Virus record (IMG/VR): IMGVR_UViG_3300036799_000135
Location: 1-29,949 of that record
Origin: a virus
Length of the DNA stretch: 29,949 bases
Direction: 5' to 3' (one strand)
Shown: one piece after another, positions 2,898 to 13,014 of the stretch
Layout of the letters: each line of letters starts with the position of its first letter
Numbering within the stretch: the first letter of the stretch is position 1
Program-made: the position numbers and the translations under genes
Notes under the pieces: generated by a model
Told to the model about the DNA's origin: nothing
The model's input: only the letters and a program-made list of their open reading frames with translations
Database searches by the model: none

Positions 2898-3454
2898 CCG
2901 CGTGGTGGACGCCGGTCTGGAAGCCGACGCCCCAGGAGCCATACCCGCCCGATCCCGAGACGCCGACCCAGGAGTTCGAGTACGACCCCTGGGAACCGGC
3001 GGTAATCCAGACCTCCGACTGGACTTGCTCCTGTGCCTCCAGTGCTTGGATTTTGAATTCCATCGGTGACTTCCGCCTGGGCCGCAAGTGGAACGAGTAC
3101 GACGTAGTCAACGCCTTGAGGACGGCCACCTATCCGGGCGCCGTCGACCCTGCCTACGGGCTGGCCCGGGCGGACATGTACGACCTCGAGGTGATGTTCA
3201 ACAGCCTGGGCTATACGGTGCTGCGGAAGCAGTACCTCAACAGAGACGACATCCTGCGTTGGAGCGGTGCTTATCCGATGCAGGGGAACGGAGCAGCCTG
3301 GTATCACCACTCCGGGTTCCGGACGGTCGGGCCAGGCGTGATCGAATTGGCCAATCCCGCCCCCAATTGGAAGGGAGTCGGTAGCCAGCTCGACGCGTAC
3401 GAGGCCAGCGTCTGGGGGAGCTGGAACGGCATGGTCATCACCGGGAGGCTCTAG
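2894..3454 (+). CDS. Papain/C39-like cysteine peptidase candidate
   Basis: 186 residues from the ATG at 2894, which overlaps the upstream stop (ATGA); an earlier in-frame GTG at 2852 would overlap the previous gene by 46 bases and is less likely. After a Pro-rich N-terminus there is QTSDWTCSCASSAW with Q39 and C45/C47. Further on are H138-H139 in WYHHSGF and N154 in ELANPAP. The order Gln, Cys, His, Asn/Asp and the C-x-x-S-[AS] pattern match papain-fold peptidases of the C39-like kind. In a phage tail cluster such an enzyme could cleave cell-wall peptides during entry or act in lysis. There is no signal peptide. The assignment rests on motif order only and the catalytic Cys is ambiguous between C45 and C47. 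Confidence 0.5.
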   Translation: MTAWWTPVWKPTPQEPYPPDPETPTQEFEYDPWEPAVIQTSDWTCSCASSAWILNSIGDFRLGRKWNEYDVVNALRTATYPGAVDPAYGLARADMYDLEVMFNSLGYTVLRKQYLNRDDILRWSGAYPMQGNGAAWYHHSGFRTVGPGVIELANPAPNWKGVGSQLDAYEASVWGSWNGMVITGRL

Positions 3455-4528: not shown

Positions 4529-4680
4529 CAGATCCATCCGTACACCTTCAGCAGGACGTAGCAGAGCACGCCGCCGATCACGATCATGACCACGATGAAC
4601 GTGCCACAGGTGGCGCAGCCCAGTCCCTGGTCGTAGTCGTCGTCGTAGTTGCGGCGGCGGTACGCCTGGGACCGGGGCAC
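4528..4680 (-). CDS. Tiny membrane protein just after the array
   Basis: 50 residues from a GTG, the first possible start after an in-frame stop at 4684-4686. The N-terminus is Arg/Tyr/Asp-rich (YRRRNYDDDYDQG), a CATC motif follows, then one hydrophobic helix (FIVVMIVIGGVLCYVLLKVY). The ribosome site is poor (GAGG ends only 1-2 bases before the GTG), which lowers confidence. Its stop overlaps the next ATG, so the two minus-strand membrane genes are coupled. The final GCCGAC delimiter of the array ends 8 bases before this start, so a transcript from the RAMP operon could carry both. No family is recognised. Confidence 0.45.
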   Translation of the reverse strand: MPRSQAYRRRNYDDDYDQGLGCATCGTFIVVMIVIGGVLCYVLLKVYGWI

Positions 4681-4688
4681 GCCTCATT

Positions 4689-6547
4689 GTCGGCGGCGGG
4701 CGGCGTAGTGGGGGCGCGGCTCGAGAAGTCGGCGCTGCAATGGCTTGCGTCGTTAGGAAATGACATGTCGGTTCAGGGAAGGCTTGAGTCGCGCGGGCTT
4801 GGGTTGTCGGCCTGGGGCAGACGAGAGCTGGGCTAGGACTAGGTTGGGCTAGTCGGTTCAGACGAGGGGTAGACATGACGTGGGCGGCGCGTGGTCAGAC
4901 CTGTCGGGGTAGGGGTCGCGAATGAGCTGCCGTGGTTTGGTTTGTCGGCAGTGAGCTGACCGGAGGGGGCCCGACTTGGGGATGTCGGCGTGGAGCTGGC
5001 AAGCAATGGTGGGCGGTGGCAAGTCGGCGATGGCGTGGTTTGGCGAGGCCCGAACAAGACGGGACGAGCATAGTCGGCGATGGCATGGGCAGCTCGGACG
5101 AGGCGGGAATCGGCGGGGCGAGCGTAGTCGGCAACGATGTGGATCGGTGCTGAGAGGCAGCGGGTTGGAGTAGTCGGCAAACGGCAGGGCTCGTTCTGGC
5201 TTGGCCATGAATCGGCTTGTCGGTGATGGTCCGGCTCGGACGGCGAAGGCTCGGCTCGTGTGGTCGGGAAAGAGATCGGGGTCGACACGGGCGCGCAGTG
5301 CGTAGTCGGGGCTCGAGCGGGGTCGCGATGGCCAGGGATGACATGTCGGCAGTGACGGGGTACGACGAGACGTGCGAAGAGGCAGGTTAGTCGGCGCGGC
5401 GCAGGACTTGATGGTCGGGGCAGGCAAGGGATAGGCGCGGCTCGTTGTGGCTTGGGCCGTCAGTCGGCACAGACAAGGCATGGGTTGGGTGGTCGGCATC
5501 GCGAGGACGGGACGAGCGGGGGAACTGGGGATGGTCAGTCGGCACCGGATCGTTGTGGGTAAGGAAACGTGTCGCGTCGGCCTGGCATGGCGACGGCAAG
5601 GTTAGGCTCGGGATGTCGGACGCGCATAGAGGGGGCTCGCGCGGGGATAGGTACGGGTAGGAGATGTCGGCGGCGGCATGACTCGATTCGGAAAGAGCCG
5701 GCTTGAGGAGTCGGGTCCGATGGGGATGGGTGAGGACAGGTTGGGCTAGTCGGCCTGGGCCAGCGCTGGTGAGGCTAGGGCATGGTAAGGAGTGAAGGGA
5801 CCGGGAGCGTCGGTATCGACGGGACGGGGGCCGGCGGGCATCGACCGGGCATGTCGGCGGCGGGCGGATGAGCAATGACGGGGTTGGGCTCGCGTAGTCG
5901 CGGGAGCGGAATGGTGTTTGGCGAGATCCGGGAAGTCGGCAGCGGACTGGGGCGCGGGCAGGCACTCGGGCGGGCTGGAGGTGTCGGCAGCGCGAGGAGT
6001 TTGGGGCGACGAGGCGTGGTTTGTCGGCGGTGCAGAGCTACGACGTGCTCGAGGGCGGTGTTGGCCAGCGGGGTCGGCGTCGGCGAGGCGCGCAATCGGC
6101 TGGGGATGGGAAGTCGGGGCCGGACGGATTGGAAGCCGGCTCGAACCGACGTGGGTAGTCGGGCAGGGGCACGAGCTGGAATGAACGATGGCAAGAGGAT
6201 GACGCGACGAGGCCAGTCGGCTTCGGGGTCGGGATCGAGCTGGTTACGCATTGGTTAGTCGGCAGGGGCGAGGCCAGACGGGACACGGCTCGGACTTGAC
6301 GGGACGCGCTGTGAGCAGAACTGTGCAGTCGGCGTGCGGGCATGGCTGGGATCGCGACGGCAGGCATAGTCGGTTGGGGGCAGGCGAGTCGGCATCGAGG
6401 CTGCGCCGGTACGGCCGGACGTGCGTAGGTCGGACCAGTCGGCTGGGGCCAGACGAGCGATGATCCCCGCGTTGAGCCTGGGCTGTCGGGGAGGGTTGCG
6501 GTGGCGCGCGGAGGTCTGAAGCGCAATGCGCGGTCGCGGATAGTCGA
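4689..6547 (-). repeat. Pentanucleotide-phased short-delimiter array (about 42 units)
   Basis: On the minus strand CCGAC (mostly GCCGAC), usually followed by A/T, recurs 43 times. In plus coordinates GTCGG begins at 4689, 4728, 4767, 4806, 4852, 4903, 4944, 4984, 5023, 5073, 5127, 5173, 5219, 5263, 5305, 5345, 5390, 5414, 5463, 5492 and on to 6485 and 6543. The last and 5897 are variants (TTCGAC, GCGAC). Units are 19-70 nt, mostly 38-51. Inside them a C falls at every fifth base: words such as GAGCC, AAGCC, TACGC, ATGCC, CAACC, then a closing CGAC. 15 of 42 unit lengths are exactly 5n+4 and 11 are 5n (one six-base word). Units at 4689, 4728, 4767, 4984, 5073, 5219, 5463, 5666, 5710, 5809, 5853 and 6369 parse with every word ending in C. 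The words between are all different. Spacing is not a multiple of 3, so no protein repeat explains it. The plus strand is G-rich and C-poor throughout. No gene is supported in 4681-6616. Confidence 0.9.
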
Positions 6548-6616: not shown

Positions 6617-7408
6617 TCAGACGCCGTTGACGCTGGCGAGGAGCGGCTCGTCGGAGAGCTGCAGGCGGTCGACTCGCATGATCTCCTCCCACTGCTCAGC
6701 GGTCGGGTGGCCCAGCTTGTCCCAGCGGGTCAGGTCGAACTCGCCGTAGCCGGCGCTGCGCTTGGCGCCCAGGCCCTCCTGCTGGCAGAGGTTCCAGATC
6801 CGCACCCACTGATCGTCGCTCAGCGCATCCTCGAGCACCAGTACCTGAAACTCGATGTGGGCGCCGACCACGTACTCGCAGTAGCCCAGGCTCGAGCGCG
6901 GACCCTGCGGGCCGTTCAGATGCCCGATGGTCATCTCGATGCCGGTCGGCTCTTCGGCGTGGAGGAACAGCTCGTGCGGGTAGACAAATACCCGCTCGGC
7001 CAGCATTGACCGGAAGCCCTTCTTCGTCGGCCCCCAGCGCTGCGCCGAGAAGAGGATGTTCGTGCTCTCCTTCAGGGCGGCCTTGAGCTGGCGCGATTCG
7101 ATGTACAGCCCCTGCGCGCCGCGCTTGAAGCCGTTGGTCTGCTTGGTCTCGGCTTCCTTGTCGGTGAGCGTGACCAGATCGTCGTAGGACATGCCTGGTT
7201 TCACGTCCAGGCCCATGTCCAGCGCGGTCCTGGCCAGCGACTGGCGCAGCTCCTCCTGCTCGCTGATGCCAGCGCGAGCGCGCAACCAGCCCTCGATCAC
7301 TCGCGTGTTCTTGGGCACGCCGCCCATCACCTTGCCGCGCCATGCGAGCGCGCCGCCGTAGAGGGCCCACTGATTCAGTGCCGCTGGCTGGTTATCGAGA
7401 ACGCCCAC
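6617..7408 (-). CDS. Lone RAMP-superfamily (Cas7-like) protein
   Basis: 263 residues from a GTG, with GGAGGT 8 bases upstream; it overlaps the upstream gene by 17 bases. Two hallmarks of the RAMP fold are in the right order. Residues 100-114 read GLYIESRQLKAALKE, matching the I-P-x-S-x-L-K-x-x-L-[RK] motif of Csm3/Cmr/Cas7 proteins. Residues 212-224 read GLGAKRSAGYGEF, matching the C-terminal glycine-rich loop (G-hG-xxR-xxGyGxf). An early GKVMGG (25-30) and a strand before the loop (HIEFQVLVLED) also fit. Known members bind guide RNA, polymerise along it, or cleave it. No other cas gene is visible. It sits directly upstream of the pentamer-phased array on the same strand. Single RAMP-like genes also occur in other phages without known role, so binding to the array RNA is inference. 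Confidence 0.65.
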   Translation of the reverse strand: MGVLDNQPAALNQWALYGGALAWRGKVMGGVPKNTRVIEGWLRARAGISEQEELRQSLARTALDMGLDVKPGMSYDDLVTLTDKEAETKQTNGFKRGAQGLYIESRQLKAALKESTNILFSAQRWGPTKKGFRSMLAERVFVYPHELFLHAEEPTGIEMTIGHLNGPQGPRSSLGYCEYVVGAHIEFQVLVLEDALSDDQWVRIWNLCQQEGLGAKRSAGYGEFDLTRWDKLGHPTAEQWEEIMRVDRLQLSDEPLLASVNGV

Positions 7409-8051
7409 GTTTCTTTACCTCCGGTAGGTCAGGCAGGGACAGCACCGGGCCGTCCAGATCGGCGAACAGGTGCATCAGGTTCGGATCGTTGACCACGGGC
7501 AGCGCTTCGGTGGCGGCCAAGCGGGCGATCTCTTCGACGGTGAACTTGTCGCCCACGGTCTGGTCCTCGTTGTCGAGCTGCTCCTCGAGGAGCTGGTGGA
7601 TGCGCGCCACATGCAGGTAGCGGATGCCCAGCTTGACGCGCTCCCTGCGCGCCACGCGCAGATCCTTCTTGCGCATGTCGAGCAGACGGAGATGCTTGGA
7701 GCCCGCGTGCTCGAGCCACTCATCGAAAGCGGACGAGCGGCGCTCCACGAAGCGGTCGACCTCGACTGGCCCCAGAAGCTGGGCGCCCAGAAGGATGGGA
7801 GTACTCAGCCCTAGCTGTCGGCTAACAGCCATCAAATTGCCCAGCATGCCGCGCACAAGCGGTGCGACGTTTTCGGCGATCAACTCGCGGCGCCACTCGG
7901 GATCTTCATCGATTTCCCTGACGACACGCTCAACGATTTGAGGAGCCTCGAATTGATCCGAGTATGGATCGTCAAGGATGGCGCCAAGCGCTTCGCGAAG
8001 CCGGTCGCGAGCGTTGGGCGGTGGGGCTGGGATACGACGTATTTCTACCAA
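7392..8051 (-). CDS. Helical protein in operon with RAMP gene
   Basis: 219 residues from a TTG with GGAGGAG (8055-8061) 3-5 bases upstream; no competing ATG fits. The protein is almost wholly helical and charged. A central segment (FDEWLEHAGSKHLRLLDMRKKDL, then RVARRERVKLGIRYLHVARIHQLLEEQ) resembles helical proteins seen in other high-GC phages. The end is a polar, basic tail (EVKKRGRSR). There are no Cys, metal or nucleotide motifs. It is the first gene of the minus-strand unit that continues into the RAMP gene and array, so it could be a partner of the RAMP protein (a small-subunit-like role) or a regulator. Neither is shown by the sequence itself. Confidence 0.7.
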   Translation of the reverse strand: MVEIRRIPAPPPNARDRLREALGAILDDPYSDQFEAPQIVERVVREIDEDPEWRRELIAENVAPLVRGMLGNLMAVSRQLGLSTPILLGAQLLGPVEVDRFVERRSSAFDEWLEHAGSKHLRLLDMRKKDLRVARRERVKLGIRYLHVARIHQLLEEQLDNEDQTVGDKFTVEEIARLAATEALPVVNDPNLMHLFADLDGPVLSLPDLPEVKKRGRSR

Positions 8052-8227: not shown

Positions 8228-9988
8228 CTAGGCGGCGTTGTTGCGAATCGACGTAGCCAAGTACTTGGCTACCGCAATATGCAACGCGGGGGCCGTATCG
8301 ATGTTGAGTTCGAGGTGAGGCTGGTTGTCCCGGTCGATGACCACCTGACGGATCACCGCGCGGGCGATGTCGCCCCAGTCGGTGTCGGTGAGCTGGTCCC
8401 ACGGGACCGCCCGCAGCCTCCTCGCCACGCCGCGCGCGCTCTCGACTTCCCTCAGTGAGCGCGAGCTGTCGTTGAGCTGTTTGGTCAGCCGCTCGACTTC
8501 CTGCTCCGCTCCCGCCTTCGTTACGAGGATCTCTTTGCGGTTGATCTCGTAGGCGCCTTCGCTGATCCCGCCACGATTCTTTTCCTTCCAGAGATTCGCC
8601 TCGTCCTGATCGGCTTCCTTGACCTTCGCTTCGGCCGCAGCCAGCCGCTGTGCAAGCGTGTTGTCTCCAGGCTCGTCCCGGTTCGTCCACGCCTCCGCAG
8701 CCGCGTCGATCTCGTCCGCCAGGCCGCGCCGCTGGAGCAGCTCCTTGACCTGTTCCCAGACCGTGGAGAGGACCAGCAGCGCAGGCGTGCGGCAGCGGTG
8801 CGTGCCCGCGTACGCGGCCAGCTCCTCGTTGCGTCCGCTGCCCATGCTGGTCGCGCAGCGGAGGTACATGTGCGTCCTGGGAAAGGGCTTCCGCGAACCG
8901 TCCGGCATGACACGGTCGACGCGAGCGGTGATGTTCATCGTGTGCCCGCAGACGCCGCAGAAGACGCGCCTGCGCAGCGGGTGGTCGATCTTCGGCCAGC
9001 GGCCTTTGCCCTGCGTGCCCTTGGCCTTGATCGCGTCCTGCAGCTCCATGTACGTGGGCCGCGTGTCGCGCTCGCAACCAGCGCAAAGGGCCAGCTCGGC
9101 GGCGTCCTTGTGTAGCAGCGGCGGCACCGGAATGATGACCACCTCGTCCGCATCCTTCCTGTGGCTGAGCCGCATTTTGTTGCCGGTGTCGGGGTGACGC
9201 TTCCGGCTGTAGCGTGTGCGCGAATAGGGCAGCTCGCCGTAGAGCGCCGTGTGATGCAGCAGGCGGCTGATGCGGTCAGCGCTCCACATCAGGTCAGGCC
9301 GCTCTACCTCTTTAGGAGCGGCAATGCGCATCCAGACGGCCAGTGGCCGGGTGCGCTCGCCAGCTACGTAGCGTTCGATGAGCTGGACCATGATGTCGGC
9401 GCGGTCGGCGATCAGCATGCCGTGGTTCTTGTCGTCGCGGCCGATCCAGTAGGGCAGCACGCCCGCCATCAGCTCTCCGTGGCGTGCGCGGTAGATGCGC
9501 ATGTCCATGGTTCTCTGGCGGATGCTATCGCGTTCGTGGTCGCCAAACGCGGCGACGACGCCCAGCCACTTGCGGTCGAAGCGGTCGGTGCAGGAGAGCA
9601 GCTTGATCTGGTCCTGCGTCTCCTGCAGCAGCAGGGCGACCGGGCCAGCCGACGCGACACCGCGAAACAGACGGTCTGAGCGCCAGACGAGCAGCACGTC
9701 GTAGAACCCGGCGTGCCCCAGCTCGATGGCTTTGCGGAAGCCCGGGCGGTCGGGGTCGACGCCTTCAGCGTTGTGCTCCCAGATGTCGCCGACCTGAACG
9801 AGCTTCAGCTCTTCGATGAGGCGCTGGCAGGTTGTGTCCTGCTCCTCGAGCGAGACATCGCCCTCAGCGAGCTTGGCGCTCTTGCGGCGATAGACGAGGC
9901 AGCGGGCGCCGACCGGCGCGATGACGTTGGAGAACAGCTCTATCCCGTGCGGGTTGAGCTTTCGGGTGCCTGGCCGTCCTGATGGCAT
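8228..9988 (-). CDS. int: Large serine recombinase (phage integrase)
   Basis: 586 residues, ATG preceded by a strong GGGAGGTG. The N-terminal resolvase domain has the nucleophile in YRRKSAK (S37), the helix SLEEQDTTCQRLIEE, and the arginine motif VWRSDRLFR (R103, R106, R110). The recombinase domain follows (about 175-300). Then comes a zinc ribbon with C344, C347, C378 and C399 (FCGVCG, YLRC, HRC) and a coiled coil (about 435-530), all in large-serine-integrase order. This class integrates phage DNA through attP x attB and needs a directionality factor for excision, so the phage is temperate. The N-terminal 25 residues before the domain are extra. attP is expected close by, probably in 9990-10316 or 8080-8227, but I cannot identify its core. 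Confidence 0.92.
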   Translation of the reverse strand: MPSGRPGTRKLNPHGIELFSNVIAPVGARCLVYRRKSAKLAEGDVSLEEQDTTCQRLIEELKLVQVGDIWEHNAEGVDPDRPGFRKAIELGHAGFYDVLLVWRSDRLFRGVASAGPVALLLQETQDQIKLLSCTDRFDRKWLGVVAAFGDHERDSIRQRTMDMRIYRARHGELMAGVLPYWIGRDDKNHGMLIADRADIMVQLIERYVAGERTRPLAVWMRIAAPKEVERPDLMWSADRISRLLHHTALYGELPYSRTRYSRKRHPDTGNKMRLSHRKDADEVVIIPVPPLLHKDAAELALCAGCERDTRPTYMELQDAIKAKGTQGKGRWPKIDHPLRRRVFCGVCGHTMNITARVDRVMPDGSRKPFPRTHMYLRCATSMGSGRNEELAAYAGTHRCRTPALLVLSTVWEQVKELLQRRGLADEIDAAAEAWTNRDEPGDNTLAQRLAAAEAKVKEADQDEANLWKEKNRGGISEGAYEINRKEILVTKAGAEQEVERLTKQLNDSSRSLREVESARGVARRLRAVPWDQLTDTDWGDIARAVIRQVVIDRDNQPHLELNIDTAPALHIAVAKYLATSIRNNAA

Positions 9989-12323: not shown

Positions 12324-12818
12324 TTGCAGTCCCTCGCCGATCTGCTGAACGACGAGGACGAGCGCAGCTTTCAGACGCGTGTTATCGAGCACGCGGAGCT
12401 TGGCGGCTGGCGCCACCAGCACCATTACTCCAGCGTCCACTCGCCATCCGGCTGGCCCGATCTGGTTCTGGTCCGTGGGCCGGTCTGCGTTGCAGCGGAG
12501 CTGAAGACCAACACCGGGCGTGTGACCGAGGACCAGGCCGACTGGCTCGACGCGCTCGCGCTGATACCAGGGATCACCGCGTGCGTCTGGCGACCGCGCG
12601 ACTGGAGGGCGATCCGAGACTTTCTCCTAGCGGGGGGACCGTATGCGACGACTAGCCTGGGGCCTGGTGCCCCTGTGCCTGGTGTTTGGCACCGGGCAGG
12701 CGAACGCGTACTCCGCAGACGACACGCAAGCCGCCATCGCCCAGGTGGCCGAGTCGTACGGGGTGTCCGCACAGCGGCTGACCAGTATCGTTGGCTGCGA
12801 GACCGGCTGGACCTTTAG
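12324..12818 (+). CDS. VRR-NUC domain nuclease
   Basis: 164 residues as the open frame, start TTG 12324. Residues about 14-105 fit the VRR-NUC fold of PD-(D/E)XK nucleases: SFQTRVIEHAELGGWRHQHH, then SGWPDLVLVRG, VAAELK (the D..ExK core) and DQADWLDALALIPGITACVWRPRDW. Phage members act on branched or damaged DNA during replication and recombination. The domain ends near residue 105 (about 12640). The remaining 58 residues overlap the next gene in another frame and look like non-coding Arg-rich translation. The true functional end may thus be near 12645, with a lost stop or an assembly error possible. It lies in the early DNA-metabolism block. Confidence 0.75.
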   Translation: MQSLADLLNDEDERSFQTRVIEHAELGGWRHQHHYSSVHSPSGWPDLVLVRGPVCVAAELKTNTGRVTEDQADWLDALALIPGITACVWRPRDWRAIRDFLLAGGPYATTSLGPGAPVPGVWHRAGERVLRRRHASRHRPGGRVVRGVRTAADQYRWLRDRLDL

Positions 12819-13014
12819 CCCCAACGTCATTGGGGATCGTGGCACCAGCTTCGGCGCCGCGCAGCTCCATCACGGCGGCTTGCTCGAGCACTTCCGCAGC
12901 GTGGGCTACACCGACCCGTTCTCGCCCTATCAAGCCATCGAATATCTGGGGCGGGCGCTGATCGGCGAGTGGGTCTACCTGGGCATCGGGGGCTGGTCAT
13001 GGACCTGCAGGTAG
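12643..13014 (+). CDS. Secreted lytic transglycosylase-like protein
   Basis: 123 residues from ATG 12643 with GGGGGG about 6 bases upstream. A classical signal peptide (MRRLAWGLVPLCLVFGTGQANA, cleavage at ANA|YS) precedes an SLT/lysozyme-like domain: AESYGVSAQRLTSIVGCETGW with the likely catalytic Glu in CETGW, then GTSFGAAQLHHGGLLEHF and SPYQAIEYLGRAL. Such enzymes cut the glycan strands of peptidoglycan. It is unusual to find one among early DNA genes. It may locally open the wall, support superinfection exclusion or act in lysis independent of a holin. It overlaps the nuclease frame by 176 bases and the methyltransferase start by 16 bases. Confidence 0.72.
   Translation: MRRLAWGLVPLCLVFGTGQANAYSADDTQAAIAQVAESYGVSAQRLTSIVGCETGWTFSPNVIGDRGTSFGAAQLHHGGLLEHFRSVGYTDPFSPYQAIEYLGRALIGEWVYLGIGGWSWTCR

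Follow-up and report, generated by a model that had tools for sequence, protein, structure and literature searches.

Class 1 CRISPR-Cas systems such as type III Csm/Cmr and type VII Cas7 are built from RAMP-fold proteins which hold the guide RNA with one base unpaired at regular intervals, a trait resembling that of the system described here. RAMP proteins are also encoded by phages, as in the Viral Interference Programmable Repeat (VIPR) systems, which combine the RAMP protein Vipr and a partner vap gene with guide RNAs (vrRNAs) composed of GGY/NN pentamers (PMC13142463). The NN doublets pair with the target while one target base, usually the codon wobble, is skipped (PMC13142463). VIPR was described in 2026 in a preprint from a few experimentally tested systems. 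Seven types are distinguished there, with repeats that follow GGY/NN "or a related consensus" and with arrays that are staggered; SUSP1-type VIPR forms RNAs of about 100 nt with a folded 3' tail and has targets on both strands (PMC13142463).

We analysed a 29.9-kb IMG/VR phage contig (IMGVR_UViG_3300036799_000135; 29,949 nucleotides, referred to as the window), which carries an array of pentanucleotides directly downstream of, and on the same strand as, an ORF for a RAMP-fold protein. The locus comprises the following features:

4689–6547, minus strand: probable guide-RNA array, recognised by period 5, CGAC delimiters, a hidden Markov model (HMM) and like arrays beside the homologous gene in relatives
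6617–7408, minus strand: vipr-like gene for a RAMP-fold protein of 263 aa with the G-rich loop GLGAKRSAGYGEF, assigned by AlphaFold2, Foldseek, BFVD and weak profile matches
7392–8051, minus strand: candidate accessory gene (vap position), 219 aa, overlapping the vipr start, assigned by recurrence of its family upstream of vipr
8228–9988, minus strand: serine recombinase gene (resolvase and recombinase domains) upstream, part of the surroundings of the module

The RAMP gene and its neighbourhood

Searches of Pfam and PHROG with the protein encoded by 6617–7408 gave no match. AlphaFold2 produced a poor model from the single sequence; the model calculated from an alignment of 46 sequences reached a pLDDT of 89 and a pTM of 0.82. 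Its best Foldseek matches in the PDB were Cmr-beta, type VII Cas7, Csm3 and Cas7-11, the BFVD match was a phage "RAMP superfamily protein", and Csm4/Cmr6 profiles matched weakly. The G-loop is conserved in the vipr-like proteins of relatives, which are small RAMP proteins in a minimal two-gene locus. Similarity to SUSP1 Vipr was weak: the family profile A4 aligned with an hhalign probability of 18% and an E value of 0.0013, and the SUSP1 Vipr structure 36pp was matched at E 0.16.

Elsewhere the window encodes a terminase, methyltransferases and a RecT/Bet-like protein; further cas genes were not recognised among the window genes examined. Nucleotide homology with the closest relative phage, G027 (L239/L240), breaks off at 4670 of the window and is regained near 12393, indicating that the array, vipr and recombinase block as a whole is replaced in G027. 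By this alignment the VIPR block appears to lie in a replaceable module, with the homology break exactly at the array edge and the return past the recombinase region.

Grammar of the array

The array contains about 40 units, most of them consisting of 6–13 pentamers of the form NN-S-Y-C (positions p1 to p5), and each unit is closed by CGAC, directly after which the next one begins. On the minus strand of 4689–6547, C accounts for 46% of the bases, and its autocorrelation falls from 0.167 at lag 5 to 0.122 and 0.089 at lags 10 and 15, being negative at lag 3. At lags 5, 10 and 15 these values exceed those of every other part of the window, none of which comes close. In 1000 dinucleotide shuffles of the array the lag-5 value was −0.001 ± 0.024 with a maximum of 0.079, so that the period-5 placement of C, noticed in the preliminary description from the letters, lies above all shuffles. 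The tetramer CGAC was counted 53 times versus 24 times in dinucleotide shuffles, an about twofold excess. A cyclic five-state HMM with free insertions and deletions gained 145 nats over an i.i.d. model; its fifth position is C at 97.6–99%, p1 and p2 are flat, p3 is biased towards G/C and p4 towards C/T.

The ten-pentamer unit described, which ends at 5073, proved exact. The CCGAC delimiters were likewise recovered, in a number of 44 rather than the 43 originally given, and the numbers of units with lengths, including the delimiter, of 5n+4 (16; 15 claimed) and 5n (10; 11 claimed) agree within one or two. The view of a fixed scaffold carrying variable information is borne out. The statement that all four other bases vary freely applies to p1 and p2 but has to be corrected for p3, which is S-biased, and for p4, which is Y-biased, both in the HMM and in 458 guides of the family. 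Tandem Repeats Finder reported nothing within 4689–6547, in agreement with the proposal that the array is neither a tandem nor a CRISPR repeat; identical direct repeats and contiguous spacers, which define a CRISPR array, were not found there. The array thereby differs from those of class 1 CRISPR-Cas, with which the system has the RAMP fold in common, in that guide information is spread through the scaffold. A folded 3' tail was sought for the array units and not found, and there was no Rfam match.

Related loci

Alignment-based scans of IMG/VR yielded first 10 and then 73 related loci, in addition to the Microcystis phage Mae-JY09 (PP395641, L002), which encodes a protein with 46% identity and a like array immediately after the gene. 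The genome of this "Microcystis" phage looks GC-rich, and its true host may be another bacterium. With a segmenting HMM, period-5 arrays were detected up- or downstream of the vipr gene in 56 of the 72 loci L151–L222, and none in about 120 control phage loci. Together with Mae-JY09, these arrays are the independent examples near RAMP genes that the preliminary description had named as support. In 147 further loci the same type of model recovered the array of a vipr record already known and gave six short candidates with at most three CGAC each. The arrays are large, with up to about 50 units, and units of at least seven pentamers mostly contain 7–9. Among the 57 loci in which an upstream ORF was called, 26, the window and Mae-JY09 included, have a partner gene of one and the same family at this place. 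Relatives of the vipr-array locus were not found in plasmids, nor in GTDB genomes by peptide-pattern scans.

A family-wide profile was built from 458 unique guides of at least seven pentamers (3,839 pentamers). Positions p1 and p2 are flat, p3 is C in 43% and G in 29% (S, 72%), p4 is C in 66% and T in 18% (Y, 84%), and p5 is C in 98%, which defines the pentamer as NN-S-Y-C with a hypervariable NN. Period-5 arrays on both strands, or several of them around one vipr gene, were observed in L198 (5523–5830 and 7217–7515), L211 and L209. A more distant relative (31% identity) in L014 (945–1500) and L222 shows GTG/NN-like pentamers with GGCGAG-type delimiters and is possibly an intermediate between the S-Y-C and GGY scaffolds.

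Decoding of the guides

Sixteen ways of combining read positions with skip lengths were tested on 72 vipr genes, using 40 permutations of each of the 458 guides as controls. Reading p1p2 with a 1-nt skip revealed an 18/18 match of a guide from L161 to the LAERVFV motif of the L169 vipr gene and a 16/16 match of a guide from L189 to the KVAEGWLK motif of the L168 vipr gene; such matches were reached by none of the 18,320 permuted guides. Under the other 15 rules real guides behaved broadly like permuted ones; the best of these rules, contiguous p1p2p3, produced a single match, again with the L189 guide and with 0.025 permuted matches per set, and the rest produced nothing stronger. Among the rules tested, clear outliers were thus confined to NN with a 1-nt skip. 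The LAERVFVE match had already been spotted by eye when the systematic test was run, unlike the L189 match and that of the window.

The window guides, read in the same way against G027, gave best matches of 15/16 and 13/14. Of 500 permuted guide sets, six did as well as the best match, and none equalled the sum of both. When 8.9 Mb were searched on both strands, ten guides came out at log10 E < −1.5, while two permuted sets were at best −1.3 and skip lengths of 0 and 2 reached −1.3. Skip lengths of 0, 2 and 3 showed no excess in the 8.9-Mb and relative-phage searches. Most guides had no target in the sequences searched.

Several other approaches were negative within their scope. The first decoding tests, on a smaller and unsuitable database (relatives and marine phage loci, 0.9 Mb each), found no rule above controls. 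BLAST of contiguous p1p2p3 strings against INPHARED returned nothing, decoded strings matched as amino acids were not better than permuted guides, the ten-pentamer guide of the window had no exact match in IMG/VR, and base-composition heterogeneity between guides was uninformative. A pattern scan with a p2p3 rule matched one tail-protein family, which was judged a chance hit.

Units with an extra base inside a pentamer (window 6262–6327; the L152 array) still decode in register, so that reading seems to count pentamers rather than exact spacing.

Targets in related phages

Two units of the window and one site of the phage itself are of particular relevance:

6262–6327, minus strand: guide unit of 13 pentamers, one with an extra base; by decoding, NN matches the lysozyme-like gene of G027 at 25/26 positions, antisense
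5769–5808, minus strand: guide unit of 8 pentamers; by decoding, 15/16 match to the excisionase-like HTH_17 gene (RSIKVGRA) of G027, antisense, skip on wobble
12832–12869, plus strand: the window phage's own copy of the 6262–6327 target site (GDRGTSFGAAQLH), from sequence; 22 of 26 read positions match

The 13/14 match led to the full match of the 13-pentamer unit, 25/26, the target of which is a contiguous 38-base stretch in G027, at 3143–3180 of L240, antisense to GDHGTSFGAVQLH of the lysozyme-like gene. Homologues of this target in two other relatives match at 24 and 23 of the 26 positions. The match of 5769–5808 to the excisionase-like gene is, on its own, suggestive.

Removing one match off the wobble phase from the ten guides below −1.5 left nine credible targets: a lysozyme-like, a primase-like and a portal-like structural gene, two terminases, an exonuclease, a small unassigned gene and two vipr genes. 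The portal-like target is conserved over 56 sites. The nine guides come from six arrays; every one of them runs antisense to its target gene and skips the codon wobble. The early top matches of L188 to L121 and of L174 to L044 are likely due to chance and were set aside because the skip is not at the wobble position.

Comparison with VIPR

The window locus shares with VIPR (SUSP1, P. fulva, type II) a small RAMP protein encoded by a phage, a small partner gene and adjacent non-coding pentanucleotide repeats in which a conserved triplet alternates with hypervariable NN. In both, NN is read with one target base skipped at the codon wobble, and the targets, which include other VIPR genes and regulators of lysogeny, lie in competing phages. 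The grammar, for which the preliminary description knew of no described element, is no longer undescribed: RAMP-guided VIPR with pentanucleotide guide repeats is the subject of the 2026 preprint (PMC13142463).

In contrast to the SUSP1 region of VIPR type II, the letters are S-Y-C/NN and not GGY/NN, and there are dozens of short CGAC-closed units instead of RNAs of about 100 nt with a folded pseudoknot 3' tail. Furthermore, p3 partly follows the target in window-type arrays, and the protein of the window family is low in sequence similarity to SUSP1 Vipr. As GGY letters and the folded tail are missing, the window array is not VIPR type II. Judged by sequence, it matches VIPR in logic and not in letters and is to be regarded as VIPR-type with a different repeat scaffold. 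It may correspond to one of the seven types of the preprint.

We consider it highly probable (about 0.92) that the array stores a bank of vrRNAs, guides of the VIPR type for the RAMP protein encoded alongside, and that these are aimed at competing related phages. What the computation shows directly is the pentamer grammar, the association with the RAMP gene, the rule of decoding, the targets in rivals and the alignment of the skip with the wobble; from these we infer the subsequent steps. The array would be transcribed and processed at CGAC into short guide RNAs bound by the protein. By analogy with VIPR, one RAMP subunit per pentamer would hold S-Y-C and present the NN doublet. Successive doublets would pair with the target as NN-x-NN-x with one base skipped per pentamer, so that the guide would read codon positions 1 and 2 and ignore the wobble. 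The complex would then silence lysozyme-like, excisionase, terminase, portal-like, primase, exonuclease and vipr genes of rivals.

Target strand and alternative readings

With the same array and code, the guide-protein complex might conceivably target mRNA rather than dsDNA, the antisense guide pairing at codon positions 1 and 2; we regard this as a tentative option. The closest solved folds, Cmr, Csm3, type VII Cas7 and Cas7-11, are RNA-targeting. The antisense orientation of nine out of nine credible targets (0.5^9 by chance) also points this way and differs from SUSP1 VIPR, for which targets on both strands are reported (PMC13142463). However, the nine matches share arrays and are not fully independent, the antisense pattern could also arise if silencing works better from the non-template DNA strand, and DNA targeting was shown experimentally for SUSP1. 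From this small sample, transcript targeting is a possibility. More broadly, the family could form a separate VIPR branch, common in high-GC and marine phages, with purely antisense guides acting on transcripts of rival phages; we regard this as less likely than not.

Improbable is a reading of the guide as contiguous p1p2p3 triplets with all three bases pairing. In the top matches p3, left unread under the skip rule, fits the target at 54 of 95 positions (57%) versus 71 of 217 (33%) in controls, which suggests either weak reading of p3 or a remnant of the guide's source sequence. The excess may simply record that source; moreover, the outliers of the triplet rule are weaker than those of NN with a skip, and the 18/18 vipr match shows a p3 agreement of 1/8. 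That the array is an unusual protein-coding gene or a degenerate repeat devoid of guide function can practically be dismissed, as the several open frames of 149–213 aa through 4689–6547 overlap in all phases, the periodicity is 5 and not 3, and decoded matches to rival phage genes with the skip on the wobble are not predicted by it.

Implications

As a bank of VIPR-type guides, the window locus and its relatives confirm the 1-nt skip code independently and by computation alone, on another scaffold and with readable natural targets. The phages aim at conserved motifs in essential and VIPR genes of their rivals, and the phage's own copy mismatches. The antisense bias raises the question whether DNA or RNA is the target; if the transcript-targeting branch is real, the reading of two bases per codon would make the guides blind to synonymous escape mutations. 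The arrays could yield thousands of decodable guides for mapping the conflict between phages.
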